Below, in pieces: positions 6,069-54,332 of a stretch of 64,000 nucleotides of DNA. This DNA comes from an uncultured Gammaproteobacteria bacterium. Its GTDB lineage: Bacteria > Pseudomonadota > Gammaproteobacteria > Pseudomonadales > Pseudohongiellaceae. The stretch lies in assembly GCA_913048385.1 (NCBI GenBank), contig CAJWVZ010000001.1, forward strand, positions 186,001 to 250,000, written 5' to 3'. Below the pieces are notes generated by a model, which was not told where the DNA came from, ran no database searches, and was given only the letters and a program-made list of their open reading frames with translations. How positions within the stretch are numbered: position 1 is the first letter of the stretch; every line of letters starts with the position of its first letter. Made by a program: the position numbers and the translations under genes.

Positions 6069-6075
6069 CCCCTTA

Positions 6076-9922: not shown

Positions 9923-9977
9923 TCTTTGCGCTGAAATGTTTTAAGGGTTCAAAAACTTTGGAAGGGATATTGTAGAA

Positions 9978-11630: not shown

Positions 11631-11665
11631 GAATAAAAAGTTACAACATTAGATGGGAGATGAAA

Positions 11666-12727: not shown

Positions 12728-12782
12728 GCCCTTCGCGCCGCATGAGCCTTTGATTGTGATGGCGGGGATTAAAGTTTAAAGA

Positions 12783-14093: not shown

Positions 14094-14289
14094 GGTAAGA
14101 TAACCTTCTTCAAGGATGGTAAAAAATTGTTTTGTTAAAGGACCTGATTACTATATCGATCTTGGTATCGTTTGGAAATAGAACTGTGTAGATGGTGTAT
14201 TTTTTCACGAAGTTATTCTAAGACGAGGCATTTTTTTCTTCAGGTAGAAAAAAATATGTTTCACTTAAGTACATGAGAGAAATAAAAAG

Positions 14290-14718
14290 ATGAGTAATTT
14301 CGACGAGTTAACTCGGCCAGTTTTTTTCCAGCCGGGCCATAATGCGGGGGACTTAGTAGAGTCTACGCAGTGGAAAATATTGAGGGAAGATCGAGGAAAG
14401 GTAGAGGTCGAGGCTCATCTACCGTCACATCTGTTAAATCCGCGCGGGCAACTCTTCGGCGGGTTTACCGGTACTTACGTTGACATGATTTCAATTTATA
14501 CAATGCGAACCCTCTACTCACAAGAAAATAGATTCAAATGGTCTGCAACAGTAAACATGCGTATCGATTACTTCGCCCCAGTTCTAGGGCCAAATTTTCA
14601 TCTAACAGGAGAGTTGATTAAAGAAGGCCGCAGTACGTGTTTGATTTCAACACTTTTTTGCGATTCAGATGGCAATAAATTAGTGTATGCTTTAACCACG
14701 CTGCGTAAAAGCGATTGA
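14290..14718 (+). CDS. PaaI-type hotdog thioesterase
   Basis: 142 residues, the family's usual length. It reads as a single hotdog fold: the central helix has NPRGQLFGGFTGTYVDMIS, where family members carry HGG-type and Asp/Glu active residues (here the Gly-Gly and Asp are visible), followed by SATVNMRIDYFAPV. Such enzymes hydrolyse acyl- or aryl-CoA esters and often relieve CoA trapping in degradation pathways. It stands alone between the divergent serine hydrolase and the convergent amtB. Start ATG 14290 with a purine-rich GAGAGAAATAAAAAG before it. Confidence 0.7.
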   Translation: MSNFDELTRPVFFQPGHNAGDLVESTQWKILREDRGKVEVEAHLPSHLLNPRGQLFGGFTGTYVDMISIYTMRTLYSQENRFKWSATVNMRIDYFAPVLGPNFHLTGELIKEGRSTCLISTLFCDSDGNKLVYALTTLRKSD

Positions 14719-14759
14719 ATTTGCAAATCGTTGAATCAATGCTTTAAAGCCCGGGAACT

Positions 14760-16085
14760 CTAAATCGAATAGCCTTTTTCATCGTGATCAACGATATCGA
14801 GCCCCTGCTCTTCATCATCCTTGCTGACTCTTATGCCCCCGGTTAAAACAGAAACCAATTTCAACAAAACGATAGTAAGTATGGCTGTGTAAACGGCCAC
14901 TGCTAAGATACCTACTAGCTGAACTCCAACCTGAGATCCGATACTTGCTCCGTCTGCTAAACCTCTGCCGCCAAAAACTCCGAGGTCTGATGAAACCAAT
15001 ATTCCAGCAAGGAAGGTCCCTACTATCCCGCCGACACCATGAACAGGGAATACATCTAAAGAATCGTCGACGCGTAATTTTTGTTTTAGATAATTAGTTG
15101 CAGTGTAACAAATGACGCCTCCAGCGAATCCTGCAATCAGCGCGCCGGCAGGACCGACTGATCCTGAGGCAGGAGTGATGGTCGCTAAGCCTGCTACCAT
15201 GCCAGTGATTGCACCTAGCCCGCTGGGCTTTCCGTATTTTACCCATTCAATAATCATCCATGTAACTGCCCCGGTGGCAGCAGAGATATGCGTCACAAAC
15301 ATTGCCATACCAGCCGATCCATCAGCTGCAAGCGCACTGCCCGCATTGAATCCAAACCAACCAACCCAGAGCATTCCAGCACCAGTAAAACTCATTGTAA
15401 GATTATGCGGCATCATGGGTGAAGAAAGGAATCCTTGTCGCGGTCCGAGCACAACCGCCGTTATAAGGGCTCCAACTCCAGCTGTGATATGAACTACGGT
15501 GCCACCAGCAAAGTCTATTAATCCCAATTCAGCTAGCCATCCACCGCCCCACACCCAATTAGCAACCGGGAAATAAATGACCAATGTCCAAAGGGTAGTA
15601 AAAAGAAGCATTGAAGAAAATTTTATCCGCTCTACGAAGGCTCCGACCATCAACGCAGGAGTTATTATTGCGAATGTCATTTGAAAAGAGGCAAACACGG
15701 TCTCGGGAATGTCACCAGACACTGAGTTGACATTAATTCCAATAAAAAGTGACTTACTTAACCCACCCCAATATAAAGATTCTGACGGACCAAAGGCAAT
15801 GCTGTAACCAACAACTAGCCAAAGTATGGAGATAACTGCGGCAATAGCGAAACATTGCATAAGAACAGATAAAACATTTTTAGTGCGAACAAGGCCTGCA
15901 TAAAAAAGGGATAACCCAGGTAAAGTCATGAATAAGACGAGAGCGGTAGAAGTTAAAATCCACGCGGTGTTCGCACCATTTAATTCTTGCGCAGACGCAA
16001 GGTTTGGAAGTACCAACAGTGTGGTTAAGAAACATATTTTTGCCGAGAAAATTTGATAAAACAACCGATTCGTGCCTGTGCTCAT
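14760..16085 (-). CDS. amtB: Ammonium transporter AmtB
   Basis: Inner-membrane ammonium channel, 441 residues including an N-terminal signal sequence (LTTLLVLPNLASAQ), as is usual in Proteobacteria. Eleven helices are recognisable. Key residues present: the two pore histidines in FAGGTVVHITAGVGAL and DVFPVHGVGGIVGT, the phenylalanine gate region and the Trp-rich external vestibule (WVGWFGFNAGSAL). The tail ends in an acidic cytosolic segment that would meet GlnK. It is the second gene of the glnK-amtB operon with only 2 bases between them. Expression is expected under nitrogen limitation; no convincing sigma-54 site was found upstream of glnK. Confidence 0.95.
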   Translation of the reverse strand: MSTGTNRLFYQIFSAKICFLTTLLVLPNLASAQELNGANTAWILTSTALVLFMTLPGLSLFYAGLVRTKNVLSVLMQCFAIAAVISILWLVVGYSIAFGPSESLYWGGLSKSLFIGINVNSVSGDIPETVFASFQMTFAIITPALMVGAFVERIKFSSMLLFTTLWTLVIYFPVANWVWGGGWLAELGLIDFAGGTVVHITAGVGALITAVVLGPRQGFLSSPMMPHNLTMSFTGAGMLWVGWFGFNAGSALAADGSAGMAMFVTHISAATGAVTWMIIEWVKYGKPSGLGAITGMVAGLATITPASGSVGPAGALIAGFAGGVICYTATNYLKQKLRVDDSLDVFPVHGVGGIVGTFLAGILVSSDLGVFGGRGLADGASIGSQVGVQLVGILAVAVYTAILTIVLLKLVSVLTGGIRVSKDDEEQGLDIVDHDEKGYSI

Positions 16086-36835: not shown

Positions 36836-38080
36836 TCACGCAAGTCGAAAATAAATATAAGCCGCCATTAACAAAAAAAGGCAAGTAACGCTAAGTATGC
36901 TCCAGGTTTTTATGAACCAACTCGGTTGTTCGGTTTCGGGGACTTTGTTGCCGAAAATAGCGAAGTGATTTAACAAAGCCAGAAATGGTCCTATCAAAAA
37001 AACGATTATTGAGGTTAAGTCCATAAAGCGGGTAAAGGAGTTCAACAACAAGTAGATAACAAAGACGGCAAAAATAGAAAGGCACAATAAAACTAGTTTG
37101 TATTGATAATGATTGCCCCACTTTATTTTTGGGAAGAACTCTTTGCCAATGGCGATGGCCATCCTCGTCATGCCGTCGTTCACAGCAAGGGCGGTTGAAA
37201 GCATGACCAGTAGCGCGGTGAAAGCGATCGCGTAGAAACTCCAATCTCCAATAAGCGTGGTATAAACGTTAAGTAACTGTCTCGCGAACCCTGCATTATC
37301 GCTGGGCATGGTGGTACCAAGCGGATTAAGGACAGCCGCACCTAAGAAAAGGAAAAAGATAGCAAGTACGCTGCTGATGACATATCCAACATTAAAGTCA
37401 AAGCGAGATTGTTCCTGCGTTATCAACAAATTTGACTCTTGAGCTTTCGCTACAGTCCACAATGACTGAAGAACTGAGGCGTCGGTTGGTGATGGCATGA
37501 ACCCTATCAAGGCGACTATAAAAATCACAGTTGGCGCGTCGAACACTGGGAAAGAGAGGGCTGAAGTGCTCCACTCTAAACGATCAAAGATTAAAAGCAC
37601 GCAAAAAGTAGTTAACAGTGTAAATCCGACGACCAAAATCTTGATAACAAATTCTAGTCTTTTGTATCCTCCAAAAAAAAGAAGAGAGTTGACGATTATT
37701 AATACCGTTATTACTCCGATTACTGGGCTTGCAGAAAGGCCTGTCGTTGCTTGAAGCAGCCCTGATGTAAAGAGAGCAACCGCAGCGATAATAAAGACCA
37801 TGCTGAAGAGCTGACTGATCGAGAATAATATGAAGATAAACCAGCCCCGCTCACGGTAACTAGTAACCAAGTTTTTTCCTGTAATGGTCGCGTACTCTCC
37901 GCCAAATCGAAGGCTGGGATATTTTATGATGCAGGCGATAAGCACTATGAAAGTCATGCTGAGACCGTAACCTGCTCCAGCGCGAGTCGCTTGAACTAAG
38001 TGTGAGACACCAACAGCTACAGCTGCATACAGCAGTCCAGGGCCAAGAGAACTTAAAGAAAATGGCCATGTGGATTTCAA
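36836..38080 (-). CDS. Nramp-related membrane transporter without the DPGN motif
   Basis: About 414 residues, 11 helices. GPGLLYAAVAVGVSHLVQATRAGAGYG occupies the place of Nramp helix 1 but lacks the metal-binding DPGN; helix 6 has GFMPSPTDASVLQSLW in place of the usual MPH region. So it belongs to the LeuT-fold/Nramp superfamily yet probably does not move the classical divalent metals. Start TTG 38080 is supported by AAGGA seven bases upstream. It is divergent from hpaH (220 bases), suggesting a shared control with aromatic catabolism. Confidence 0.6.
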   Translation of the reverse strand: MKSTWPFSLSSLGPGLLYAAVAVGVSHLVQATRAGAGYGLSMTFIVLIACIIKYPSLRFGGEYATITGKNLVTSYRERGWFIFILFSISQLFSMVFIIAAVALFTSGLLQATTGLSASPVIGVITVLIIVNSLLFFGGYKRLEFVIKILVVGFTLLTTFCVLLIFDRLEWSTSALSFPVFDAPTVIFIVALIGFMPSPTDASVLQSLWTVAKAQESNLLITQEQSRFDFNVGYVISSVLAIFFLFLGAAVLNPLGTTMPSDNAGFARQLLNVYTTLIGDWSFYAIAFTALLVMLSTALAVNDGMTRMAIAIGKEFFPKIKWGNHYQYKLVLLCLSIFAVFVIYLLLNSFTRFMDLTSIIVFLIGPFLALLNHFAIFGNKVPETEQPSWFIKTWSILSVTCLFLLMAAYIYFRLA

Positions 38081-38300: not shown

Positions 38301-39107
38301 ATGACATTTTCGAAGCAAGAAGTGTTGGCAATTGTTGCCGAACTTGAACAGGCAGAAGAGACCCGAAATCCAATACCGCATATATCGAAGCGTTTTCCTG
38401 ATATGAATGTCGCTGAAGCTTATGCAATTCAAAGTGCGTGGGTTGCCCTCAAGCGCAAGAAAGGACGCCGGCGTATTGGCTGGAAAATCGGATTAACCTC
38501 GCGGGCAATGCAGCGAGCGGCTGGGATAACAGAACCTGACTATGGTCAGCTTCTTGACAATATGCTTTTTTGGTCGGGGAGCCGACTTAACGCGAGCGAT
38601 TTCATTATTCCTCGAATTGAAACGGAGCTAGCTTTTCAATTGAAATCACCTTTAAAGGGGCCAGATTGTTCTCTGCTAGACGTACTTGCAGCTACAGATT
38701 GGGTGATACCTTCTTTGGAATTAATTGACGCTAGGGTTCAGATCGAAGATCCGGTCACAGGCGAGAAAAGAAAAGTACTTGACACAATTTCAGACAACGC
38801 CGCAAACGCTGCAATAATTTTGGGTGGGACACCCGTCAGGCCAAGCGATGTTGATTTAGCGCGTGTCTCTGCAACGCTGAGTAGGAACGAGGTCGTTGAG
38901 GATAGCGGAGTAGCTGCAGCCGTTTTAGGGCATCCAGCTCAGGGGGTGGCCTGGCTTGCTAATAAAATTTCTCATCATGATGAGCAGTTAGAGGCAGGGA
39001 GCTTGGTTCTTGGTGGGTCTTTTACAAGCGCCATCTTGGCAAGGGCAGGAGATACTTTTTATGCAGATTACGGCGATCTTGGAATTATTACTGTTGGGTT
39101 CGATTAG
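38301..39107 (+). CDS. hpaH: 2-oxo-hept-4-ene-1,7-dioate hydratase
   Basis: Hydrates the dienoate made by HpaG in homoprotocatechuate breakdown. 268 residues, matching HpaH. Family markers: WKIGLTSRAMQRAAGI, EPDYGQLLDNM, RIETELAFQL with acidic metal ligands, and GSFTSAILARAGDTFYADYGDLG at the end. Same operon as hpaI, which begins just after its stop. The related 2-keto-4-pentenoate hydratases (MhpD) are less likely because of the hpa neighbours. Confidence 0.9.
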   Translation: MTFSKQEVLAIVAELEQAEETRNPIPHISKRFPDMNVAEAYAIQSAWVALKRKKGRRRIGWKIGLTSRAMQRAAGITEPDYGQLLDNMLFWSGSRLNASDFIIPRIETELAFQLKSPLKGPDCSLLDVLAATDWVIPSLELIDARVQIEDPVTGEKRKVLDTISDNAANAAIILGGTPVRPSDVDLARVSATLSRNEVVEDSGVAAAVLGHPAQGVAWLANKISHHDEQLEAGSLVLGGSFTSAILARAGDTFYADYGDLGIITVGFD

Positions 39108-39121
39108 AGTTGATTGTGTCA

Positions 39122-39883
39122 ATGAATAAAAAGCTTTACCTGGATGATTCAGATCGAGATCCACTGATAGGCGCATGGGTGGACTTGGCAAGTCCATTGA
39201 TTTGCGAAATGCTTGGGTCTATGGGCTTTGATTGGATTTTGATTGATGCGGAACATGCACCTAACTCGTTACCACAGGTTCTATCTCAACTCCAAGCTAT
39301 CGCTGCATATTCGACTATTCCAGTTGTGAGACTGCCCAATCATGATGCTTCACTGATTAAGAGATACCTTGACATTGGCGCGACAAATCTCCTCATTCCT
39401 TTTGTGGATTGCGCAAAACAAGCAAAAGAAATTGTTAGTGCCACTAGATACCCGCCCCAGGGTATTCGCGGTGTGGGTGCTGGGTTGGCGCGTGTGTCTC
39501 GTTGGGGAACAAATACAAACTATCTTTTAAAGGCTAATCAAGAGATAACGCTTTTGCTTCAAGTTGAAACAAATGTGGCTCTCAATAATGTCGAAGAAAT
39601 CGCTTCGGTCGAGGGTGTAGATGGTATATTTTTTGGGCCAGCTGACATTGCAGCTTCAGTCGGCAAGCTTGGTATGGCGGATGATCCATTCGTCCAGCAG
39701 ATGATTTTAGATGCAATAAACCGACTAACGGATTTGAGTAAACCCACCGGGGTTTTTTCCATAAATAGAGAATTTCTCGAAGCATGTAGTTCCGCGGGTA
39801 GCAGTCTCATCGGTGCAACTTCAGACGTAAATCTAATGGTCTCTGGTGGTAAAACCCTCTTAGCGAGTTACAAAGAAAAATAA
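39122..39883 (+). CDS. hpaI: 4-hydroxy-2-oxo-heptanedioate aldolase
   Basis: Class II aldolase splitting 4-hydroxy-2-oxo-heptane-1,7-dioate to pyruvate and succinate semialdehyde. 253 residues from ATG 39122 (a TTG at 39110 is less likely). Markers: GAWVDLASPLICEMLG, DWILIDAEHAPN, the RVSRWGTNTNY loop, LLQVETNVALNNVEEIA with the metal Glu, and FFGPADIAASVG. Its product would be taken up by the semialdehyde dehydrogenase at 46356-47816. Confidence 0.9.
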   Translation: MNKKLYLDDSDRDPLIGAWVDLASPLICEMLGSMGFDWILIDAEHAPNSLPQVLSQLQAIAAYSTIPVVRLPNHDASLIKRYLDIGATNLLIPFVDCAKQAKEIVSATRYPPQGIRGVGAGLARVSRWGTNTNYLLKANQEITLLLQVETNVALNNVEEIASVEGVDGIFFGPADIAASVGKLGMADDPFVQQMILDAINRLTDLSKPTGVFSINREFLEACSSAGSSLIGATSDVNLMVSGGKTLLASYKEK

Positions 39884-39934: not shown

Positions 39935-40909
39935 CTACCGAAGGCTCTGCGCTTTGTTGGCAACGCGCATGAGTCCTAAAAGACGATCTAGTGCCGGCGT
40001 GTTTATGCCAACCATGCGAGCAATCTCTTGGGGAGCCTCCAGCAAGGCCCCTACCTCCAACTGCTTGCCAGACTCGGCGTCTTGAAGCATGGAGGTTTTG
40101 AATGCGCCGAGTTTACGCGTTACCTCATGCCGATCCTCGGCTGTTTGTTTTATAGGGCACCCGATAGCGGAGCCAATCAGAGAAGCCTCGTTCATAACAT
40201 CAGAAGCGAATTGTCTAGTCTCGGGATCATCTAAGATGACGTCGCACGTACTTCGGGTTAGTGCAGACAACGGATTCATTGTCATGTTGCCCCACAATTT
40301 GTACCAAATGTCCTGCCGAATATCTTGCGAGACAGTTACTTCAAATTCCGCGTTCGCGAGCAAAGTTGCAACGTCCTTTACTTTTACCTCGGGCAATTCG
40401 GACGCGGAGCCAATGATAAGACCATTTCCCATAACATGTCGAACTACCCCTGGTTGCTCCATGTAGCAAGACGCATGAATAACACCACCGAGCACTTGGC
40501 CGCTTGGTAAAAAGTTTACGCAACTGTCCTGAGGGTCAACTGAAACCAGTGTAGTTGAGGTCACGCTTTGTGAAACTTTTTCAAGAAACCACCAAGGAAC
40601 CCCGTTCATTGCCGGCAGAATCGATGTGTTAAGAGATATAAGGGCTTTTGCCTCAGACGCCGCTGTCGGCAAGTCTTGAGCCTTGACGGCAAATATTACT
40701 AAGTCTTGAGGTCCAAAATCTTCTGCGTTATCGCTGACCGGAATACGGTTACAGCTATTTTTTTCAGTTCCCTTTATCGTTATTCCATTTTTTGAAACGC
40801 ATGTCCTCGCCTGGCTACGTGCAAGTAAGCTGACCCTAGCATTCGTTTCGGACAATCGTCCGGCGATCCATAGGCCAATGGCTCCAGCTCCGACTATGGT
40901 AACTTTCAT
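39935..40909 (-). CDS. Ketopantoate-reductase-like dehydrogenase in the hpa operon
   Basis: PanE/ApbA family NADPH-dependent 2-oxoacid reductase, 324 residues: GAGAIGLWIAGRL at the start, VIFAVKAQDLP, then KLWGNMTMNPLSALT with the catalytic Lys. It overlaps hpaG by 4 bases (ATGA), so it belongs to that operon. True ketopantoate reductases are not part of this pathway; a role on a branched or 2-oxo acid side product is possible. This is inference. Confidence 0.75.
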   Translation of the reverse strand: MKVTIVGAGAIGLWIAGRLSETNARVSLLARSQARTCVSKNGITIKGTEKNSCNRIPVSDNAEDFGPQDLVIFAVKAQDLPTAASEAKALISLNTSILPAMNGVPWWFLEKVSQSVTSTTLVSVDPQDSCVNFLPSGQVLGGVIHASCYMEQPGVVRHVMGNGLIIGSASELPEVKVKDVATLLANAEFEVTVSQDIRQDIWYKLWGNMTMNPLSALTRSTCDVILDDPETRQFASDVMNEASLIGSAIGCPIKQTAEDRHEVTRKLGAFKTSMLQDAESGKQLEVGALLEAPQEIARMVGINTPALDRLLGLMRVANKAQSLR

Positions 40910-41811
40910 CTATTCGATCTCTTCAAGTTTGCATCGTTATAATTTTTCCTGAGAGTTTCCGGGACTCGGCCGTCATTTCCGAGCGCAACCCGCCTCACTT
41001 CTTCAGAATCGCTAGGTTGATGACCCACGTTACAGATAGGGTCAGGAGAAGAGGTAATTGAAACGCTAAGTCTGCCAATTCCGGTGATTTCAACCTCGAT
41101 TTCATCGCCTACTTCCACCGACCGAGAATGGCAGGGTGTCCCTGTTAGAATAATGTCGCCCGGAAGCAACGTGATGTGCCGTGATAGGTCCGCGATCATA
41201 TAATCAGGCCCCCAAATTAACTCTTCGCCGATATCAGCTTCCTGAACAAGCAGACCATTTCTAAAAGTGCGTATTGACTGTTTTCTTGGATCTACCCCAG
41301 AGACGATACCGGGTCCGATTGGGCAGAAACCATCGTTGCCTTTCACACGGAGCATTGAACCAGAGTCAGTATCGCGAAAATCATGCAACCCCATATCCAG
41401 CGCGGGAGAAAATCCCGCGATGCAGTGCCAAGCCTCCTCAGGAGTGACATTTCGAGTTTTTTTGCCAATAATTGCTGCAAACTCGCCCTCGTAATTTAAA
41501 TACATGCAATTTTCAGGTTTTTTTACCTCTCCGAGGTGATGATTAAGTGCTGTCGTTGGTTTCATAAAGTAAGTCGGGTTTTCTGTAGGTTGAGGCTTGT
41601 TTCGGGACTCTATTCCTCGCGAAGTATATGTCAAATGAGGGCAAATAATTTTTGTCGGGACACAGGGTGGTAAATGGGTGACATCAGCTTCCGCTATTTT
41701 TCTTCCATCGGATAAGGATATTACCCCATGGGATAATATCGAACCCCACTGCTCTTTCCCTTCTATGAGCACGCGCCTTTTCTCTATCCTTGGGCCCTCA
41801 AGCACAGACAT
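40906..41811 (-). CDS. hpaG: FAH-family isomerase/decarboxylase of homoprotocatechuate pathway
   Basis: 301 residues, single fumarylacetoacetase-type domain after a short N-terminal part. Metal ligands in YLNYEGEFAAIIG (EGE) and the LDMGLHDFRD acidic stretch; ILTGTPCHSRSVEVGDEIEVEI at the end. In E. coli HpaG is a two-repeat enzyme (about 429 residues) doing decarboxylation and isomerisation; here only one domain is visible, so either a homodimer does both, or a second unit lies elsewhere. Gap of 2 bases to hpaD. Confidence 0.85.
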   Translation of the reverse strand: MSVLEGPRIEKRRVLIEGKEQWGSILSHGVISLSDGRKIAEADVTHLPPCVPTKIICPHLTYTSRGIESRNKPQPTENPTYFMKPTTALNHHLGEVKKPENCMYLNYEGEFAAIIGKKTRNVTPEEAWHCIAGFSPALDMGLHDFRDTDSGSMLRVKGNDGFCPIGPGIVSGVDPRKQSIRTFRNGLLVQEADIGEELIWGPDYMIADLSRHITLLPGDIILTGTPCHSRSVEVGDEIEVEITGIGRLSVSITSSPDPICNVGHQPSDSEEVRRVALGNDGRVPETLRKNYNDANLKRSNR

Positions 41812-41813: not shown

Positions 41814-42677
41814 TTATACCTCAAACCAAATGTGAATATTTCCAGTGCCGTGAGCGTTTTCATATTCTGAGAGGGCGGTGCCGTGGGCTGTGCATTTTTC
41901 ACCGCCGAGCGCGCCGATCATCTGAAGGTAATGTGCGCCGCATGCCTCCCAAGGAGCTTTTTTATATTCTGAGTCAAAGTCGTGTAATATTTTGGCGTGC
42001 TCTCCCTGACAAAGTTGCTCAATAGCCCGATAATCGCTCGCTCTATTTTTGTCAGATGAAATATTGTCCGGATGATACAGTCGAGGATTCTTTGGCTTGT
42101 CATTGATGTTTCTAAATTTATGACTCAATGCGCCAGACGCAAGGAGAACTGCAGAACAACCGCTTCGTCTAATGGCTTCACCAATGACCTGACCCATCTC
42201 CAAAAAATTCGCGGTTGATGCCGTTTGACAAGACCCTACAGAAACTACTTTCTCGTTAGTTACCAGAGCATTTACGATATTAATCGTTGCATAGTGCCGG
42301 GCCATAGTTGGTGCATCAATCGCTTTAGCTATTACCCCGAACTCAACTGCTACCTCCTCGCAGACAGCAGCAAAATGCGGAGAGCCCTGGTAATCATATT
42401 GTTGGCCATGGAGGTACCAAGGCATTTCATCTGAAACATAAGTTCCACTATACTCTTGTCCAGCATCTACTAAGTGGCAACCGGTCGTAAACCAATGAGT
42501 ATCGAGTACAATAATTAAGTCGGGTTGTGCATCTTTAATTTTAGCTTTTACTCTTGCGAAACCTTGGATTAAATCTGAGTCCCTTCCATTGCCCGCTTTC
42601 ATCCTAAACTCTTGCGTTTGAAATAACCCCGGATGATGAGAAACTAAAGCTGCGCCAACAATTTTTCCTTGAGTCAC
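41814..42677 (-). CDS. hpaD: 3,4-dihydroxyphenylacetate 2,3-dioxygenase
   Basis: Extradiol ring-cleaving enzyme of the LigB class (287 residues; E. coli HpaD has 283). Markers: GAALVSHHPGLFQTQEFRMK at the start, VLDTHWFTTG with the iron His, GCSAVLLASGALSHKF and WEACGAHYLQMIGAL. It opens homoprotocatechuate to 5-carboxymethyl-2-hydroxymuconate semialdehyde. Start GTG 42677. Not the vicinal-chelate type used by some Gram-positives. Confidence 0.9.
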   Translation of the reverse strand: MTQGKIVGAALVSHHPGLFQTQEFRMKAGNGRDSDLIQGFARVKAKIKDAQPDLIIVLDTHWFTTGCHLVDAGQEYSGTYVSDEMPWYLHGQQYDYQGSPHFAAVCEEVAVEFGVIAKAIDAPTMARHYATINIVNALVTNEKVVSVGSCQTASTANFLEMGQVIGEAIRRSGCSAVLLASGALSHKFRNINDKPKNPRLYHPDNISSDKNRASDYRAIEQLCQGEHAKILHDFDSEYKKAPWEACGAHYLQMIGALGGEKCTAHGTALSEYENAHGTGNIHIWFEV

Positions 42678-42689: not shown

Positions 42690-44153
42690 CTATCGTTGAG
42701 CAAAGCTTGGATTGAATATAGTCTTTGGAAGTATGACATCTTTGACATCGCAAAAAAAATCAAAACTCCAGTTACCGCCCTCGCGACCAATGCCTGAGTT
42801 TTTGCATCCTCCGAAAGGGGCAGCCAGATCTCTAATTCCAAAAGAGTTTACCCAAATGAATCCTGTTTTTACCTGATTGGCAACCGTAAGCGCTCGTTTT
42901 GTTTCACCAAAACATACGCCGCCTAATCCGTACTTTGTGTTGTTGGCGAGAAGTATCGCCTCCTCATCAGATTGAAATGATTGAATGACTAAGACAGGGC
43001 CAAAAACCTCTTCTTGGACGATTTCATCATTTTGATTGACATTACTTAGCATGGTGGGAGTGTAGAACAGGGCGCCAGCATCGTGTTCCACGCCACCCCA
43101 GAGAACTTCTGCTCCTTGAGCAATCGCTCTATTAACGTACCCTTTTACCTTTTCGAGTTGTTTGGCGTTAATGAGCGGTCCTACTTCAGTGCTTTCGTTT
43201 TGGGGGTTTCCTACCTTTAAATTTAAGGAGTATGCTTTCATTCTTTCGACAAATTGATCGTAAATATTTTTGTGTACTAGAAATCGTGTGCCAGCTAAAC
43301 ATACCTGTGTCGCGTTTCTGTACATCAGTGCTCCGGTCCTTGCTGCTAAATCGATATCGGCGTCGTCTAGTACAATAAAGGGAGATTTTCCGCCGAGCTC
43401 TAGACTACAAGGGGTAAGATTCTCAGCAGCGGATTTTGAAATTTCTTGAGCAGTCGAAACAGACCCGGTGAATGATATCCTCCGTATTCGTGGGTCAGAG
43501 GTTAATAATGATCCAGTCGCAGCCCCGTTGCCGTGAACCATGTTAAGCACGCCAGGGGGCAGACCAGCTGCATCTGCTGCCTCAGCTAGAAGAGCGCTTG
43601 ATAAAGGTGCTAATTCGGGAGGTTTAATTATACAAGTATTACCGGATGCCAGGGCGGGACCTAACTTCCACGTAGTGAGCATAAGTGGAGCGTTCCATGG
43701 CGTAATAATGGCGCACACTCCGGCCGGGTCATATTTCAAATAATGAGATGCTTGCGGTGTTTCAATAGTGCTGTCTTGCAGATTCAGTGCTGCCTCAGCA
43801 AACCAAGTGATGTTGAGCATCGATCTTGGGAGAATTCCATGTTTCAAACGAGAAAGTAAGATTCCAGCATCGCATGATTCAACTTCGCAAATAGCGTCTT
43901 TTCTCTTCCCGATCTCATCCGCGAAGCGCTTAAGGTATGGTAATCTTCCGTGTGCGCCCAGGCTTGACCAAAATGGGAACGCTTCATGTGCAGCGATTAC
44001 CGCAGCGTTTACATTTTCAGCCGACCCGCAAGATATTTCAGCCAAATTTTTGCCATCGGTTGGAGAGAAGACTTTAAAATAACTTTTTCCTTCAACCCAA
44101 AGACCGCCGATGTAATGAGAGTCGTTTAAAGCATGTCCCTGTATATTGGGCAT
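42690..44153 (-). CDS. hpaE: 5-carboxymethyl-2-hydroxymuconate semialdehyde dehydrogenase
   Basis: Aldehyde dehydrogenase family member, 487 residues from ATG 44153 (AAAGGA seven bases upstream). Catalytic Cys in NATQVCLAGTRF, Glu in LELGGKSPF, NAD binding in SFTGSVSTAQEIS. The context between sulfatase and hpaD and the oxidised substrate expected from HpaD support the hpaE call; sequence alone would also allow other semialdehydes. Confidence 0.85.
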   Translation of the reverse strand: MPNIQGHALNDSHYIGGLWVEGKSYFKVFSPTDGKNLAEISCGSAENVNAAVIAAHEAFPFWSSLGAHGRLPYLKRFADEIGKRKDAICEVESCDAGILLSRLKHGILPRSMLNITWFAEAALNLQDSTIETPQASHYLKYDPAGVCAIITPWNAPLMLTTWKLGPALASGNTCIIKPPELAPLSSALLAEAADAAGLPPGVLNMVHGNGAATGSLLTSDPRIRRISFTGSVSTAQEISKSAAENLTPCSLELGGKSPFIVLDDADIDLAARTGALMYRNATQVCLAGTRFLVHKNIYDQFVERMKAYSLNLKVGNPQNESTEVGPLINAKQLEKVKGYVNRAIAQGAEVLWGGVEHDAGALFYTPTMLSNVNQNDEIVQEEVFGPVLVIQSFQSDEEAILLANNTKYGLGGVCFGETKRALTVANQVKTGFIWVNSFGIRDLAAPFGGCKNSGIGREGGNWSFDFFCDVKDVILPKTIFNPSFAQR

Positions 44154-44200
44154 CTGTTTTTCCTTTCTAATTTCCAAAAAAGCGCAGGGCGAACTAAGCC

Positions 44201-45907
44201 TCATTCGAGGTGCTTAAAACTCTCTAACTGATCTTGATATCGGGCGTACCCTACTTCGCTTTCCAGCAGAATAACGTTATTAGCGTCCGCATATGTAGAA
44301 AAAGTTTCTTTCATCTCGCTAACCTTAGCTGGGTAAACTGCGCTGAGATCATCGATTTCTCCTGGATCTGTTTGCACGTCAAACAGTTGCCATTTTCGAC
44401 TCTCCCAATCCCAATGAAGCTTCCATTTCCCGCTCCAGGTCGCTTTATTCCCATAAGTTTCCATCGAAAGAGTGCTTCGAAATTCAGTTTTCGGTTTTTG
44501 ATCGAGCAGTTCTCGGACAGCTGAGAAGCCCTGCATAGCTTCTCGATCATAGGCCGAAATTTTACCTATATCCAACAGGGTTGGAGCAATATCTAAAATC
44601 GAGAACAGAGTATTAATTTTGAGATTTTTTGGAATGATTTTTGGGAATGAAAAAATAGCCGGGACTCTGACGCCGCCTTCCCCTAGAAAGCTTTTGTATT
44701 CATTTAAAATTCCTGCGCTGACATGGGCCCATCCTCGACTCAATGTAACATAAGAATTTACTTTTCCCATATTTTGATATGATTGATCAAAAGTTTTTGG
44801 TAACCAATCCTTGTTGTCCGCAAGACCGTATTCTATATCGTTACCTTCAGGACCGTTGTCCGAAAGAAAAACAATAAGAGTGTTTTCATATTTTCCGGAA
44901 GATTTCAGATAAGCTATTAGCCGTCCAATCTCATTATCTAAGTAAGCAATCATTGCAGCATATAATTCCATCTTGCGTGACTCTCTCGCTTTACTTTCTT
45001 CAGAAAGATCAGACCATGATCCCAAGGCATCTGGAAAGGGTGGCGCCGCTGCCGTTTGCGAAATTAAGCCAAGTTTTCGAGCTGATTCGATGCGCTGAGC
45101 ACGGATCTTTTCCCAGCCGTCATCATAGACGCCGGAGAATTTATTCTGCCAATCTTCTGGAACCTGAAGTGGCCAGTGCGGGGCAGTAAAAGCAAGATAT
45201 CCAAAAAAAGGATCTGTATTTGCATCTTCTTTTTTATCGTCAAGGTAGCTTATGAGCTTATTGACGTAAAACTGAGTGGAGTAAAAGTCGCTGGGAAGGT
45301 TTTCGATTTGAATTCCGTCTTCGAAATAATTGGCAATCGGCGCTGAAGATGTTTGTCCCGCTGCGTCAGAAAAATGGCTAGCTCCACCATCCGCGAGATA
45401 GAAGGCTTTCTTAAATCCGCGGGCGTGGGGGTTAGCGTCCGGTGAATTGCCTTGGTGCCATTTTCCGGCCATTAGAGTGTGATAACCAGCAGATGCAAAT
45501 CCCTCAACAAAAGAATTGACCTGATCTGGCCAAACACCGCTGTAGCCCGGTTGTCCATTTAGCACGGGTAGTCGCTGGGCAGCAACAGGGTTGAAGCCAT
45601 ACCCAACGGAGTGGCTATCCAAGCCACTTAATAGCATAGCTCGGGATGGCGCACAGGTGGCATTTGAGTAGAACCGAGTCGCCATGGCTCCTGAGCGAGC
45701 TAGGGAATCTATATTTGGGGTAGGTATTTCACTTCCGTAAATACCCAAGTCGGAGAATCCAAGATCATCGGCAAGTATTATAAGAACGTTTGGTCTCTCT
45801 ACTCCAAGTTGATGGGTAATGTTTTGTTCAGAGCAGCCTACTGTCAAAGCAGAAACCATTAAAGAGCACGGAATCAGAGCAACTAGTTTCCTTGAATTTT
45901 TTGTCAT
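44201..45907 (-). CDS. Lipoprotein arylsulfatase, formylglycine type
   Basis: Sulfatase of about 568 residues from ATG 45907. It begins with a lipoprotein signal whose lipobox ends LTVGC (Cys25), so it is anchored to a membrane facing the periplasm or outside. The active-site motif CAPSRAMLLSG (Cys85 to be turned into formylglycine) and metal ligands ADDLGFSD are present, as is LSDNGPEG. It is the first gene of the operon leading into hpaE-hpaD-hpaG. The maturase (formylglycine-generating enzyme) is not in the window. It probably frees phenolic sulfate esters; the exact one is unknown. Confidence 0.85.
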   Translation of the reverse strand: MTKNSRKLVALIPCSLMVSALTVGCSEQNITHQLGVERPNVLIILADDLGFSDLGIYGSEIPTPNIDSLARSGAMATRFYSNATCAPSRAMLLSGLDSHSVGYGFNPVAAQRLPVLNGQPGYSGVWPDQVNSFVEGFASAGYHTLMAGKWHQGNSPDANPHARGFKKAFYLADGGASHFSDAAGQTSSAPIANYFEDGIQIENLPSDFYSTQFYVNKLISYLDDKKEDANTDPFFGYLAFTAPHWPLQVPEDWQNKFSGVYDDGWEKIRAQRIESARKLGLISQTAAAPPFPDALGSWSDLSEESKARESRKMELYAAMIAYLDNEIGRLIAYLKSSGKYENTLIVFLSDNGPEGNDIEYGLADNKDWLPKTFDQSYQNMGKVNSYVTLSRGWAHVSAGILNEYKSFLGEGGVRVPAIFSFPKIIPKNLKINTLFSILDIAPTLLDIGKISAYDREAMQGFSAVRELLDQKPKTEFRSTLSMETYGNKATWSGKWKLHWDWESRKWQLFDVQTDPGEIDDLSAVYPAKVSEMKETFSTYADANNVILLESEVGYARYQDQLESFKHLE

Positions 45908-46005
45908 GTGTGGTGTCGCCAAATTTTTATTGGTGATGGATAATCATTAATATTATTGTAATTTGCACGTAGAGTTTGACTGAATTCAAGCGTTGATTAA
46001 GAGCT

Positions 46006-46308
46006 TCATTCACTGACGACGCAACTTGTTCGGATGACTACTTCAGTTTCATCGTCTCCTAATTCTGCCAACGCATCTAAATATTTTGGATCATTTTTAA
46101 ATGAGATTGCTTTTTCAAAAGTTTCGAACTCGACAACCACTGCAGAGTGCATTTTGGTTGCTCCAATTTGCGTTCTAGCTACCTTCCCTAAGACTATTGT
46201 TTTTGCTTCACCGCTTTCAACAAGTGCCTCCCATTTTTTAACGTATCGTGAAAAGCGTTCAGGGTCTAAAATTTTTTCGACATGGTTTATCCAGTAGCCT
46301 TTTGCCAT
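46006..46308 (-). CDS. DUF1330 protein
   Basis: 100 residues, alpha-beta ferredoxin-like family of unknown role. It reads KGYWINHVEKILDPERFSRYVKKW, then VVVEFETFEKAISFKNDPKYL. It follows the semialdehyde dehydrogenase by 47 bases on the same strand, so it may belong to that operon. Start ATG 46308 with AAAGGTAG upstream. Confidence 0.75.
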   Translation of the reverse strand: MAKGYWINHVEKILDPERFSRYVKKWEALVESGEAKTIVLGKVARTQIGATKMHSAVVVEFETFEKAISFKNDPKYLDALAELGDDETEVVIRTSCVVSE

Positions 46309-46355
46309 CTTTCTACCTTTTGTAATCTTAGAAAAACGATAAGATTTCGATTATC

Positions 46356-47816
46356 TTATGTGTTGATTCCGCCCATTGAGTGGAATTTTGTTTCATAAAA
46401 ATCTTGAATGCCTTCTTTCCCGCCCTCTGATCCAATTCCAGATTGTTTCCAGCCACCGAATGGCGCAACTTCTGTAGAAAACACTCCGGAATTCGAACAA
46501 ACGATGCCATATTCTAGACTCTCAGAGAGCCTCATTACCCTTCCGATATCCCGAGTAAAGAAATAAGCGGCTAAGCCATAGTTTGTTGAATTTGCTTCCG
46601 CAATAACTTCTTCTTCCGACGAAAAGCTTTCCACAGCAGCGATGGGTCCAAAGATTTCCTCGTTTAAGATTCTCATATTCTTAGATGTATTTATCAGTAA
46701 TGTGGGCTCATAAAAAAACCCGCCAAGCGCATGGCGCTTGCCTCCAAGCAAGACGGCGGCGCCATTGGATTTTGCATCTAACATAAACGAATCCATTTTC
46801 TCGACTGCTTTTCTATCTATCATTGGCCCAATGGTCGCTTCCTCGTCGAACCCATCGGCGACCTTTAATTTTGAAATGCCTGTCTTGAGCTTGCTTACAA
46901 AATTATCTATAACATCATTTTGAACATAAATGCGATTCGTACAAACGCAGGTTTGTCCGCAATTTCTAAACTTTGTCGCAATACAGTGCTCAACGGCTTC
47001 ATCAATATTGGCATCGTTAAAGACAATAAAGGGTGCGTTACCACCCAATTCTAGGGAAACCTTTTTGATCGACTTTGCACATTGCGCCATTAAAATTTTT
47101 CCGGTGGCTGTTGAACCTGTAAACGTGAATTTTGCGATACTCGGGTGTTGAGTTAATACCTCACCAATACCTTGGCTGTCGGTGCCGGCGACAACGTTCA
47201 GGACGCCCGACGGCAAGCCTGCGCGTTTAGCCAACTCACACAAGGCTAGGGCAGATAGGGGTGTCTTCGGGTCGGGTTTAATTACCACGGTACATCCTGC
47301 CGCTAGCGCTGGGGCCGCCTTTCGAGTAATCATGGCGTTCGGAAAATTCCATGGTGTGATGCAACCGACAACACCGATTGCTTGTTTATATGTAAAAAGC
47401 CTTCGGCTTTTGTCGACTGTTGGAATAATGTTGCCTAAAACACGTTTGCATTCTTCAGCGTAAAACTCGATAAAACTCGCGCCATATATGATTTCATTTC
47501 TTGCCTCGGAGATTGGTTTACCCTGCTCTAAAGTCATGATCTTAGCTAAGTCTTCAGTATTCTCCAGAATCAATTGAAACCATTTCTGTAAGACTGAAGC
47601 CCGTTCCTTTGCCGTGAACCCACTCCAATATTTGAAAGCTTTTTGTGCCGCATTGACTGCGTCTTCCGCATCAGACCGGGTGCTATCGGATACTTTCGCT
47701 ATAATCTGGTTTGTTGAGGGATTTATGACCTCGAGTTGATCATCTTGATGATCAACCCATTCGTTGTTAATAAAGCTGCTTGTTTGAAATAAGCTTGGAT
47801 CAGTTAATGTTGTCAT
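46356..47816 (-). CDS. gabD: Succinate-semialdehyde dehydrogenase
   Basis: Aldehyde dehydrogenase, 486 residues from ATG 47816. Catalytic Cys in NCGQTCVCTNRIYV, Glu in LELGGNAPF; the typical GabD pattern TITPWNFPNAMITRKAAPALAAGC is present, with the first Cys of the CxC pair, whose cystine switch is known in GabD. It would turn the succinate semialdehyde from HpaI into succinate for the TCA cycle. Divergent from the beta-propeller lipoprotein. Confidence 0.85.
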   Translation of the reverse strand: MTTLTDPSLFQTSSFINNEWVDHQDDQLEVINPSTNQIIAKVSDSTRSDAEDAVNAAQKAFKYWSGFTAKERASVLQKWFQLILENTEDLAKIMTLEQGKPISEARNEIIYGASFIEFYAEECKRVLGNIIPTVDKSRRLFTYKQAIGVVGCITPWNFPNAMITRKAAPALAAGCTVVIKPDPKTPLSALALCELAKRAGLPSGVLNVVAGTDSQGIGEVLTQHPSIAKFTFTGSTATGKILMAQCAKSIKKVSLELGGNAPFIVFNDANIDEAVEHCIATKFRNCGQTCVCTNRIYVQNDVIDNFVSKLKTGISKLKVADGFDEEATIGPMIDRKAVEKMDSFMLDAKSNGAAVLLGGKRHALGGFFYEPTLLINTSKNMRILNEEIFGPIAAVESFSSEEEVIAEANSTNYGLAAYFFTRDIGRVMRLSESLEYGIVCSNSGVFSTEVAPFGGWKQSGIGSEGGKEGIQDFYETKFHSMGGINT

Positions 47817-48034
47817 ATGTGTGTAGTACAAACTCCCACGAGAGTGAAGAAAGAATCCCGAATTGTGAGTATGATCCAGCTTAGGGCGAGGAATCAAGTG
47901 AAGGAGGATGCGCAGGTTTTGGATAGGGTGTCCTGCACTCGGCCTTGACGCGTTTAAAAAAATTTTAAATGTGAAAATTGTTTCCGAGGGCGTGGTATCC
48001 TGTTTTTATAAACAATGTCGTGAGGGCAGTGGGT

Positions 48035-49081
48035 ATGATTATGTTTCGAAAGAGTGCGGTGTTAACTTTTGTGATAATGACAGTGCTTGTTGGCTGTGTT
48101 AACGATTATTCAGACTCGGTCGCGGTAGAGCAATCAGGCATTTGCGACGAAGACGTCGGGATCACATATATCTGCGGCCTGATGAATGCCGAGGATCTTC
48201 TGAGCTTAGGCGATAGTGAAATGATCCTGACTTCCGGGATGTCGAGCGAAGGAGTTAACGGGCACCTTTACATAGTCAACACAAGAGATGATAGCTGGGA
48301 GGATTTGGTCGGGAGCGTTAATTTTTCGCAAGACTTTGATAATACCCTCTACGCCGCCTGCTCTGATCAGTTCAGTGTTGATAATTTTTCTGCTCACGGT
48401 TTGGCACTTAAGGAGATTGAACCAAAGTTTTTTGATCTGTATATAACGAGCCATGGGGCTCGTGAAGCAATTGAGATTTTTAATCTCGATCTAAGAAGCG
48501 GTTCTGCGATTTTGACATGGAGAGGTTGCGTGCCTCTAGACGAAAGCATCATGCACAATAGTGTGGCCATTCTCGATGACGGGGGTTTTGTTACTACTCA
48601 GTTCATGGTTTGGGCAGAGGGTCTCGCATCAGCGGTTACTGGTGAGGCTAAAGGTAGCGTTGTTGAGTGGCATCCTGGTGGGGTGCCGGAAACGGTTCTA
48701 GGAACCGAGCTTTCGGCTCCAAATGGTATCGCCATCTCAGATGACCAGCGTTATATGTTTGTGGCAGCACTCGGCGCACGGGAGATAGTACGTTTTGATC
48801 TCTCTCAGGAACCTATAACAAAAACGATCGTCTCAACAGGAAGTATTCCAGACAACGTTCGTTGGGGAGAGCCGGGTAAGCTTCTCACTGCTGGCGGCAA
48901 TATCGATGGTAACGGCTGGTCCGTGGTAGAAGTCGATGCGATGGGCATGGGATCCGTAAAAGTCGGCGGTATGGATGGCTCTGCTAAAATGCAAGGGATA
49001 AGTTCGGCTTTGCAAATTGGTGATAAAATTTGGGTGGGTACATACAATGGCGACCGAATTGGGTATTTCACAAAGCAGTGA
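48035..49081 (+). CDS. Beta-propeller lipoprotein, SMP-30/paraoxonase-like
   Basis: 348 residues. Signal ends in a lipobox LVGC after VIMTVLVG. The body reads as propeller blades typical of gluconolactonase/arylesterase-like proteins: DFSAHGLALKEIEP-like blade, SAPNGIAISDDQRYMFVAALGAREIVRFDL, GSIPDNVRWGEPGKLLTAGGNID. Start at ATG 48035, with GAGGGCAG upstream; ATG 48041 is also possible. Probably a periplasmic lactonase or esterase with calcium; no substrate can be named. Confidence 0.7.
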   Translation: MIMFRKSAVLTFVIMTVLVGCVNDYSDSVAVEQSGICDEDVGITYICGLMNAEDLLSLGDSEMILTSGMSSEGVNGHLYIVNTRDDSWEDLVGSVNFSQDFDNTLYAACSDQFSVDNFSAHGLALKEIEPKFFDLYITSHGAREAIEIFNLDLRSGSAILTWRGCVPLDESIMHNSVAILDDGGFVTTQFMVWAEGLASAVTGEAKGSVVEWHPGGVPETVLGTELSAPNGIAISDDQRYMFVAALGAREIVRFDLSQEPITKTIVSTGSIPDNVRWGEPGKLLTAGGNIDGNGWSVVEVDAMGMGSVKVGGMDGSAKMQGISSALQIGDKIWVGTYNGDRIGYFTKQ

Positions 49082-51230: not shown

Positions 51231-52145
51231 ATGTACATACATGTTTTAGGCGCTGCAGCTGGCGGAGGGTTTCCTCAATGGAACTGTAACTGCCCAATGT
51301 GCTTTGGTGTAAGAAGCGGAACAATAAATGCAAAACCTCGGACGCAATCCTCTATTGCTGTTAGTGGGAATGGCATCGATTGGGTTCTATTCAATACATC
51401 CCCAGACATTCTCACACAATTAGCCGCCTTTCCTAAGCTGCAGCCGGCGCGAGAGCTCAGAGACACTGCGATAAAGGCCATTTTGTTCATGGATTCGCAA
51501 ATAGACCATACAACTGGTTTGCTTATGTTGCGTGAGGGCTGTCCTCATGAAGTTTACTGCAGTGATATGGTTTATGAGGATCTCACTTCTGGATTTCCGC
51601 TGTTTACAATGCTGGAGCATTGGAACGGTGGCATTAATCGCCATTCGATACCGCTTGATAACTCAGCTTTTACAATCCCTGGTGTTGACGGGGTTGCTTT
51701 CACTGCTATACCGGTAAAAGGTAAGGCCCCGCCGTACTCACCCCATCGTAATGACCCGCACATCGGCGACAACATAGGGATTCAGGTTACAGATACGATT
51801 ACAAACAAGACGGTGTTTTATGCGCCAGGCCTCGGAGATTTAACCGAAGAGACCAAAAGCTTAATGTCGTCCTCTGATTGTTTGCTGATCGATGGAACTT
51901 TTTGGGATGAAGATGAGATGAGTAGTGTTGGGCTGGGGGAGAAAAAGGCTGCGGACATGGGACATCTTCCACAGTCAGGAGCGAATGGCATGATTGAGGT
52001 CCTCAGAGGCATGGATCGTCCGCGAAAGGTTCTTATTCATATTAACAATACAAACCCCATTTTAGATGAGGATTCGGCAGAGCGTAAGATATTAACAGAC
52101 CACGATATCGAGGTTGCATACGATGGCCTGGATATACACTTATGA
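51231..52145 (+). CDS. pqqB: PQQ biosynthesis protein PqqB
   Basis: 304 residues, metallo-beta-lactamase superfamily. Opening [21 protein letters not shown] is the family signature, with zinc-site cysteines; [16 protein letters not shown] replaces the usual HxHxDH. PqqB hydroxylates the Tyr of the Glu-Tyr intermediate. First gene after the attenuator; 25 bases ahead of pqqD. Confidence 0.95.
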
Positions 52146-52170
52146 GGGCAGTTAAAAAAGAGAATCGGAG

Positions 52171-52449
52171 ATGAGTGAAGAGCTTTCTGATAGGGAATTC
52201 TGTATTAATTCTAATTACAGGCTGCAGTATGAGGAAGCACAAGGATGTTATGTGCTCCTTTACCCGGAGGGGTTGGTTAAGCTGAGTGATACGGCGGTCG
52301 AGATACTTAGACGCTGTGAGGACCCCATCTCTTGTGACGAGTTAATTAGGCGATTACAACAAGACTACCCTGATGCTGATACGTTAGAGGATGATGTCCG
52401 AGATTTTTGGACTCATGCGATTAGTGAGGAATGGATAGTTGCCAATTGA
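52171..52449 (+). CDS. pqqD: PQQ peptide chaperone PqqD
   Basis: 92 residues. RiPP recognition element that binds PqqA and gives it to PqqE. Markers: LQYEEAQGCYVLLYPEGLVKLSDTAVEILRRC, then a DDVRDFWTHAISEEWI end. It sits directly before pqqE, where it always must act, but pqqC, usually between pqqB and pqqD, is missing from this place. Confidence 0.93.
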   Translation: MSEELSDREFCINSNYRLQYEEAQGCYVLLYPEGLVKLSDTAVEILRRCEDPISCDELIRRLQQDYPDADTLEDDVRDFWTHAISEEWIVAN

Positions 52450-52461
52450 GGGGAAGTGTTT

Positions 52462-53613
52462 TTGAGTAGAGAAGTTGTGAATCCGCACATACCGATGTGG
52501 CTTCTTGCCGAGCTTACATATGCGTGCCCGTTGCAATGCCCTTATTGTTCTAATCCGCTTCAACTTCCCGCGAGCCGCAAGCAAGAGCTGGGCACAGACG
52601 AGTGGTTGCGAGTTATGAGGGAGGCGAGAAAGTTGGGAGCTGTTCAGCTTGGTTTTTCCGGTGGTGAGCCGTTATTGCGAAAAGATTTGGTTGAACTCAT
52701 GCAGGCTGCGAATGACTTGGGCTTTTACTGCAACCTTATAACTTCGGCTGTTGGGCTTAACGACGAAAAAATCGGTCAGTTTAAAAAAGCGGGAATTAAA
52801 CATATTCAAATCAGTTTTCAAGGAAGCTCTAGAGATACGAATGCTTTATTTGGCGGCACAGACTCTTTTGAACACAAACTGGCGATGACTAGGGCAGTAA
52901 TCAAGCAGGGTATTCCTCTTGGGTTAAATTTTGTATTGCACCGACACAACATTCACCAGGTTGCAGATTTTTTAACGCTCGCAGAAGAACTCGGTGCTGA
53001 ATTTGTCGAATTAGCGAACACTCAATATTACGCGTGGGCATTACATAATCGGGATCAGCTTCTGCCGAGTTCTGCTCAACTCGAGGAGGCAGAGGCGGCT
53101 ACGAATCGGTTTAGAGCGCAGCACAAAGGTAAGATGAATGTTATTTTTGTGGCGCCGGATTATTATGAAAAAAGGCCGAAAAAGTGCAGCAATGGTTGGG
53201 GTACGACTTTCATCACGGTTACACCCGACGGCTCAGTCCTGCCGTGTCAGAGTGCTAAGGTGATCGAGGGGTTAGAGTTTCCCAACGTAAGAGATGCCTC
53301 TCTAGACTATATTTGGAAACAGTCGGAATTGTTTAATCATTTCCGAGGCACGGACTGGATGCAGGAGCCTTGCTTGAGTTGTCCAGAAAAAGACTTGGAC
53401 TTAGGTGGGTGTCGATGTCAGGCATATATGTTGACAGGAGATCGCTACGCTACTGATCCGATTTGCGAAAAATCATCAGATCGTCATTTGATAAGCGATG
53501 CTGTTGAGGCAGCTGAGCAGAGCGGTCAGTTTATTGATGAGCCCGTACCTTTGCTTTTCAGAAATACTAGAAATGCTAAAAATCTTTCAATGAACGAGAG
53601 TCAATCGGAATGA
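52462..53613 (+). CDS. pqqE: Radical SAM enzyme PqqE
   Basis: Joins Glu15 and Tyr19 of PqqA. 383 residues: radical SAM cysteines in [11 protein letters not shown] (22, 26, 29 from the TTG start), [11 protein letters not shown], and a SPASM domain with C-terminal cysteines in [17 protein letters not shown] for auxiliary clusters. The start is TTG 52462 with GGGGAA upstream; GTG 52456 is possible. Seven to thirteen bases after pqqD and overlapping pqqC by 4 bases. Confidence 0.95.
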
Positions 53614-54332
53614 ACGCGCCTTGGACTAAAATTGAGTTTGAACGAAAACTGCGTGATAAAGGTCGTCTGTACCACATCCATCATCCTTTTCATGTGGCGA
53701 TGAATTCAGGAGAAAGCTCGCCCGAGCAAATTAGAGGCTGGGTAGCTAATCGGTTTTATTATCAGACTACGATCCCGGTAAAAGATGCAGCAATCCTAGC
53801 TAATTGTAAGGAACGGTCGGTGCGCAGGGAGTGGGTACAAAGAGTTCTTGATCACGACGGCTATGATGAAGAAGAGGGTGGTATAGAAGCATGGCTGCGC
53901 TTGGCCGAAGCGGTCGGGCTCACTAGAGAAGAAGTTTTGTCTGAAGAGCATGTTTTGCCCGGGGTAAGATTTGCATGTGACGCTTATATCAATTTTGCTC
54001 GTCAAGCGAGCTGGCAGGAGGCGGCTTGTTCAAGCCTTACTGAATTGTTTGCACCCGAAATACATAAAAAAAGACTTCAAAGCTGGCCCGAGCATTATCC
54101 GTGGATTGATGAGGAGGGTTACAATTATTTCAGGAAAAGGTTGTCAGAGGCGCGCCGAGACGTTCGGCATGGTTTAAATATTACTCTTGATTTTTTTGAT
54201 TCGCGGGATCTTCAAGATCGAGCCTTAAACATATTGCAGTTCAAGCTTGATATTTTGTGGTCTATGTTGGATGCGATGCAGATGGCGTATGATTTTAAAA
54301 AACCACCTTTTCACAGTTGTCCTGAGTCTTAG
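53610..54332 (+). CDS. pqqC: PQQ synthase PqqC
   Basis: Final cofactor-free oxidase, 240 residues, all-helical heme-oxygenase-like fold. Markers: [37 protein letters not shown], and [16 protein letters not shown]. Start ATG 53610 overlaps the pqqE stop (ATGA). It is last here, giving the order A-B-D-E-C; in most bacteria it is third. Confidence 0.95.

Follow-up and report, generated by a model that had tools for sequence, protein, structure and literature searches.

A sulfatase kept in one gene block with ring-opening enzymes suggests feeding on sulfated catechols in a Pseudomonadales genus

Introduction

Sulfatases belong to a superfamily whose members have side activities on phosphate and phosphonate esters. 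The arylsulfatase AtsA of Pseudomonas aeruginosa (1HDH), the nearest known enzyme for comparison here, is to our knowledge known neither from a ring-cleavage operon nor as a lipoprotein. In the case of Klebsiella aerogenes, the title of a 1990 report by Murooka describes atsBA as 'a sulfur- and tyramine-regulated operon', which is an old precedent for a tie between an S1_4 arylsulfatase operon and aromatic metabolism. The table of sulfatases with known specificity in PMC5066984 lists AtsA of P. aeruginosa and Enterobacter aerogenes W70 under S1_4, and this source also states that several cloned arylsulfatases have no known physiological substrate. Sulfated phenolics are described in literature abstracts as abundant in, for example, seagrasses. 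The genomes of SAR86 carry arylsulfatases as well as catechol dioxygenases, but in the available text of PMC11582366 these sulfatases are assigned to sulfolipids. A literature search, with most subscription journals outside its coverage, retrieved no title or abstract that places a sulfatase within a cluster of the homoprotocatechuate type.

The locus described here lies in the window, that is, the whole stretch of 64,000 nucleotides that was analysed, and its sulfatase resembles AtsA in a full-length match, in the sulfate-site residues that are kept and in falling into the same clade. While the tie in Klebsiella atsBA would be regulatory, judging by the title, the one observed here is physical, with ring-cleavage genes, and copper amine oxidase was found in none of the 12 genomes that carry the cluster. 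Common to both is a sulfatase of S1_4 (table in PMC5066984), which in the Klebsiella case is tied to an aromatic amine. In comparison with the homoprotocatechuate meta-cleavage pathway (hpaDEFGHI), chemical steps in matching order can be assigned to the block and HpaH scores over its cut-off, whereas the HpaD-, HpaE-, HpaG- and HpaI-like proteins remain below theirs, HpaF occurs in 2 of the 12 genomes and HpaB in none. A further comparison is offered by 70 clusters of other bacteria (L028-L097) that share the same dioxygenase subfamily (54-62% identity), with an aldehyde dehydrogenase (ALDH) and a FAH-domain enzyme in 69 of 70 each; unlike the present locus, none of them has the orthologous sulfatase in place, and an unrelated one stands beside six.

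Layout of the gene block

The genes and their profile matches are collected in Table 1. The minus-strand order is succinate-semialdehyde dehydrogenase (SSADH), DUF1330, sulfatase, ALDH, LigB, FAH and the ketopantoate-reductase-like gene, with HpaH and the HpaI-like aldolase convergent to this series and the Nramp-like gene beyond HpaH, oriented away from it. The sulfatase had been taken by the earlier note as the first gene of the operon, a claim that does not hold, as DUF1330 and SSADH precede it on the same strand, with gaps of 98 bp (sulfatase to DUF1330) and 47 bp (DUF1330 to SSADH). For SSADH, the frame has an ATG at 47816, and with TTG it reaches 47897. The ALDH probably starts with the ATG at 44153, 47 bp past the sulfatase stop and equipped with an AAAGGA box, because the N-terminus conserved in its relatives places the start there; an overlap of 4 bp between the two genes, which needs the first ATG of the frame, was rejected on the same grounds.

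Table 1. Genes of the block, with positions in the window and profile matches
Feature	Positions	Strand	Profile evidence
Nramp-like membrane protein, possible permease	36836..38080	-	Nramp_1 47.4 bits, below cut-off 50; no Pfam match
HpaH, 2-oxohept-4-ene-1,7-dioate hydratase	38301..39107	+	TIGR02312 376.6 bits, over cut-off 351.5
HpaI-like aldolase	39110..39883	+	PF03328 2.5e-45; HpaI 286 bits, cut-off 369
Ketopantoate-reductase-like oxidoreductase, end of minus-strand block	39935..40909	-	PF02558, PF08546
FAH-domain enzyme, HpaG-like decarboxylase/isomerase candidate	40906..41811	-	PF01557 1.2e-46; best matches PRK12764 and HpaG C-terminal (154.0 bits, cut-off 276)
LigB-type extradiol dioxygenase, HpaD-like subfamily	41814..42677	-	PF02900 7.4e-18; best match HpaD_Fe 128.7 bits, cut-off 316
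Aldehyde dehydrogenase (ALDH), HpaE-like	42690..44153	-	Best NCBIfam match HpaE, 475.6 bits, cut-off 638
Lipoprotein arylsulfatase, AtsA/PAS type, CAPSR	44201..45907	-	PF00884 E 2.6e-58
DUF1330 protein	46006..46308	-	PF07045 4.4e-13
Succinate-semialdehyde dehydrogenase (SSADH)	46356..47897	-	TIGR01780 651.9 bits, over cut-off 646

Promoter-like sites numbered 21 against 15.6 (sd 4.3) in shuffled sequences, and terminator-like sites 10 against 11.3 (sd 3.2). None of the listed terminator-like sites falls between the sulfatase and ALDH genes, a result of little weight. The Rfam search found one tRNA in the whole window and, within 44000-48100, had no match at E values of up to 0.1. Further along, at 51231-54332 (+), PQQ-synthesis-like genes of the Lactamase_B_2, radical SAM/SPASM and TENA/PqqC families stand side by side.

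The sulfatase

The earlier note had described the protein as a lipoprotein arylsulfatase with an intact CAPSR site; its coordinates and motif were borne out. Its CAPSR motif at residues 85-89 has the C-x-P-x-R form required of formylglycine sulfatases, and its N-terminal signal has a Cys after L-T-V-G, read by eye as a lipobox, which a loose pattern also finds in 9 of 10 relatives. The closest solved relative is AtsA of P. aeruginosa (1hdh), with 373 bits in one stretch covering residues 37-546, followed by 7all with 217 bits and then by structures at 157 bits or less, including an iota-carrageenan sulfatase with 148.5. In the 1hdh alignment, read by eye and with 1hdh printed with Ser at 51, the AtsA positions D13, D14, C51, R55, K113, H115, H211, D317, N318 and K375 are matched, of which we take H115 and H211 to be sulfate-site residues; the motifs are alike in 11 of 11 aligned rows. 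Most of the residues in this list are named in the available text of PMC5066984.

A tree with 45 rows groups the sulfatase and ten relatives into a 100/100 clade, which is nested in a 100/99 clade containing AtsA, while the single polysaccharide sulfatase reference of this tree, the kappa-carrageenan sulfatase 6prm, is placed elsewhere. The grouping with polysaccharide sulfatases that the earlier note had named as a refutation was not seen, with the qualification that the tree program warns of long branches that meet, including between the two large groups, and that the order within the AtsA clade is open. By domain, residues and clade, the protein fits the AtsA type (S1_4) of formylglycine sulfatases, with hydrolysis of aryl sulfates as its predicted activity.

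Conversion of the active-site Cys to formylglycine is likely, not certain: four PF03781 matches were found in the window's genome, the best with 239 bits, but NCBIfam does not name this one a maturation enzyme (FGE) and puts it nearest to GldK, below that cut-off. In total, this genome has 7 sulfatases. On its contig C2, a stretch of less than 14 kb (1602-15139) holds a PF03781 gene together with two more sulfatases, one of which is likewise AtsA-like (354 bits to 1hdh).

Ring-cleavage genes and the source of the catechol

The genes following the sulfatase had been named hpaE, hpaD and hpaG in the earlier note. The order ALDH, LigB and FAH was confirmed; the names are too strong, since the HpaE, HpaD, HpaG C-terminal and HpaI scores are all below the curated equivalog cut-offs of NCBIfam, and HpaH alone is over its Hpa cut-off (Table 1). 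The LigB dioxygenase is 25-29% identical to plasmid genes annotated as hpaD, and its residues His14, His15, His61, His186 and Glu244, which we presume to be catalytic, are invariant in an alignment of six rows. Two of the 12 cluster genomes have the HpaF isomerase (PF02962), in neither case on the contig that carries the cluster, and the window's genome gave no match; no control genome was positive, and the sensitivity of this search is shown only by the two matches. The predominant absence of HpaF implies that one canonical step is done otherwise or does not exist. A canonical hpa operon was thus rejected, with the HpaD-, HpaE-, HpaG- and HpaI-like scores, the rarity of HpaF and the lack of HpaB matches against it, and the block is, as far as its profile matches tell, a non-canonical version of the homoprotocatechuate pathway, in which the steps that follow ring opening were assigned by family only.

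As the earlier note had stated for HpaBC within the window, no 4-hydroxyphenylacetate 3-hydroxylase was found: HpaB (PF03241) gave no match in any of the 12 cluster genomes searched, including that of the window, which is 98.9% complete, whereas 4 of 14 controls were positive. Copper amine oxidase (PF01179) likewise gave 0 of 12, with 1 of 14 controls positive, and entry from tyramine or dopamine through this enzyme was set aside. An entry through a PF01494 hydroxylase was also rejected, as only two such proteins exceed the cut-off in the window's genome and NCBIfam identifies both as ubiquinone hydroxylases. On the evidence of these three families, PF03241, PF01179 and PF01494, the catechol probably arrives already dihydroxylated, and a feed of this kind suits a sulfated catechol. 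A ready-made catechol masked as its sulfate is the simpler reading in comparison with tyramine or dopamine entry.

Conservation within the genus

An orthologue of the sulfatase occurs in 12 of 84 genus genomes searched, the window's included, with 62-100% identity; outside this orthologue group, the closest sulfatases reach at most 45% identity in the genus and at most 41% on plasmids. The earlier note had proposed a search of other genomes for the sulfatase-hpaE-hpaD order, and the outcome went in its favour. The ALDH directly follows the sulfatase on the same strand in 12 of 12 orthologue-bearing genomes, and in none of the 18 fetched loci of paralogues with 35-43% identity. Among 61 genus genomes checked for both proteins, LigB (69-100%) and the sulfatase orthologue were found in the same 8, whereas the remaining 53, incomplete genomes among them, gave no match to either; in the other four orthologue-bearing genomes, LigB is likewise in place after sulfatase and ALDH. 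Two genomes of other families gave a LigB match of only 27%, and in an even draw of the class the dioxygenase was found, at E 1e-50, only in the window's genome among 369.

Pairwise protein distances of the sulfatase correlate with those of ALDH, LigB, FAH and HpaH with r of 0.94-0.975, which shows joint inheritance of the sulfatase with the cluster; within one genus, this would equally follow from common descent, that is, from the species tree alone. All 10 of the other genus loci with sufficient flanking sequence have the ketopantoate-reductase-like gene. SSADH adjoins the cluster in 6 of 10 loci with such flanks (the window and L023-L027), being not seen in L019, L020, L021 and L167 within the locus sequence examined. 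The DUF1330 gene was not seen in other genus loci. The Nramp-like gene is the neighbour of HpaH in all 8 genus loci that extend far enough, and also in L167; the usual Nramp metal motifs are not visible by eye in its protein, so that what it carries may be organic. Six of 10 genus loci (L022-L027), the window not among them, have a gene upstream of the sulfatase (e.g., L024:5153-6505) that encodes a protein with weak, below-cut-off matches to cytochrome c and to the C-terminal domain of copper type II monooxygenases, and in L022, L023 and L025 one gene lies between it and the sulfatase.

Related clusters in other groups

By using the dioxygenase in a scan of genome contigs, 112 relatives were confirmed, of which the best 80 comprise ten genus loci and the 70 other loci mentioned above. 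Most of the latter are betaproteobacterial, and besides these there are two Pseudomonas, one Sphingobium and a few broadly labelled MAGs; named hosts include Pandoraea, Variovorax, Rubrivivax and Sphingobium, among others. At an identity of at least 40%, and with some loci ending early, the partners of LigB other than ALDH and FAH are HpaH (61), the HpaI-like aldolase (37), the reductase (33), a GlcD-like oxidase (19) and an HPPD-like enzyme (4).

The sulfatase found beside six of these clusters (L053, L060, L063, L073, L078 and L081) is of a second type, with CSPTR, about 450 aa and 24-26% identity to that of the window; it groups with carrageenan sulfatase, not with AtsA, and has no signal peptide by eye. 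A culturable bacterium that has this second type is Pseudorhodoferax sp. Leaf267. Its position and direction relative to the cluster vary among the six loci, it is split in two frames in L060, on L073's contig it lies 1 kb from HpaH, and L078 is a MAG labelled Gammaproteobacteria. The 69 genomes of the 70 loci hold 43 copies of this type at E 1e-100 or better (22 + 21), and inside the examined loci there are 4 full-length copies versus 0.16 expected (Poisson P 2e-5, kinship ignored), an enrichment that is post hoc, as the type was chosen because it had been seen beside the cluster; the share of clusters concerned, 6 of 70, is small. The LigB cluster was absent in 10 of 12 stretches around further copies, with L154 as a new case and L156 as L053 again. 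No such sulfatase was seen within the locus sequence of the other 64 clusters, some of which end early, so that the pathway does not need one. The second type beside the same dioxygenase cluster may represent convergent recruitment.

L057, L066 and L081 also carry sulfatases of other types, and L096 has a partial match without the motif. In L081, a Rubrivivax MAG, four sulfatases lie within 21 kb around the cluster; one of these, several kb away and with a lipoprotein-like start, is related to that of the window at 33% identity. Near the second sulfatase type, another LigB-like frame (28-29%) is found at L060:2397-3311 and L154:10443-11291.

Discussion

The reading preferred here, held with somewhat more belief than doubt, is that the genes of the block act together in the catabolism of a sulfated catechol whose side chain is of the acetate type. 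Its basis is the gene content, the conserved order, the intact sulfate site, the AtsA-type clade and the failure to find HpaB. The sulfatase would be exported as a lipoprotein and matured by conversion of its active-site Cys to formylglycine, and would then act outside the cytoplasm, where it takes the sulfate group off an aryl sulfate. The catechol set free in this way would be imported and its ring cut by the LigB dioxygenase, and the fission product would be oxidised by the ALDH and decarboxylated by the FAH-domain enzyme. Hydration by HpaH and splitting by the HpaI-like aldolase would then yield pyruvate and succinic semialdehyde, which SSADH would convert to succinate. We infer that the flow runs in this direction. 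The sulfated-phenylacetate route suggested in the earlier note is in its core retained, on the conserved order, the AtsA clade and the lack of HpaB; a tyramine or dopamine entry via copper amine oxidase is not supported.

The alternative that survives best, although we consider it unlikely, is that the catechol cleaved is not homoprotocatechuate but, for example, a further hydroxylated, phenyllactate- or phenylpyruvate-type compound, freed by the same sulfatase. Low scores for HpaD and HpaE and the lack of HpaF do argue against equating the substrate with homoprotocatechuate, in line with the HpaG-like protein below its cut-off and the low identity of LigB to annotated hpaD, and the ketopantoate-type reductase, together with the GlcD-like oxidase and the HPPD-like enzyme of relatives (19 and 4 of 70), is extra to the Hpa set. 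However, an HpaH over its cut-off and an SSADH in the block fit a two-carbon acid side chain, as they imply a C7 diacid and succinic semialdehyde, and an acetate side chain is argued for on these grounds.

It is improbable that the sulfatase has a polysaccharide as its substrate, or a part in general sulfur supply, and owes its place in the block to chance or to shared regulation. Such a role would accord with the number of sulfatases in the window's genome, and 7all, titled 'Arylsulfatase', is presumably a galactose-3-sulfatase of the same subfamily, which counts against reading this subfamily as aryl-specific. In addition, according to PMC3920027, the class is named after a test substrate that is artificial, and sulfated carbohydrates are substrates of many of its members as well. 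Against this role stand the order kept in 12 of 12 genomes, the clade with AtsA and the lack of any carbohydrate-active family among the block genes in family profile searches, and mere sulfur supply is unlikely if the organism is marine, given the sulfate of seawater. That the sulfatase acts instead on another catechol ester, a phosphate or phosphonate, can be all but dismissed, as the general promiscuity of the superfamily is its one argument, while the sulfatase retains both the CxPxR nucleophile and the sulfate-site residues of AtsA.

Beyond the catabolic unit itself, a wider reading is put forward tentatively, as slightly more doubtful than not: a dedicated carbon route for sulfated catechols in this Pseudomonadales genus, in which desulfation by an AtsA-type lipoprotein outside the cytoplasm is joined to non-canonical ring cleavage, and which would have arisen independently, with an unrelated sulfatase, in other, mostly betaproteobacterial lineages. 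As the second sulfatase has no signal peptide by eye, desulfation in those lineages would follow uptake.

Conclusion

What is new here is a known enzyme type in a conserved and telling gene neighbourhood. A sulfatase fixed beside ring-cleavage genes offers a candidate class of natural substrates for an AtsA-type enzyme, and the combination of sulfatase and ring-cleavage block provides a genetic marker for the use of sulfated catechols that can be searched for in metagenomes. For this group of little-known Pseudomonadales bacteria, the retention of the sulfatase in the same gene block as the ring-opening enzymes suggests feeding on sulfated catechols.
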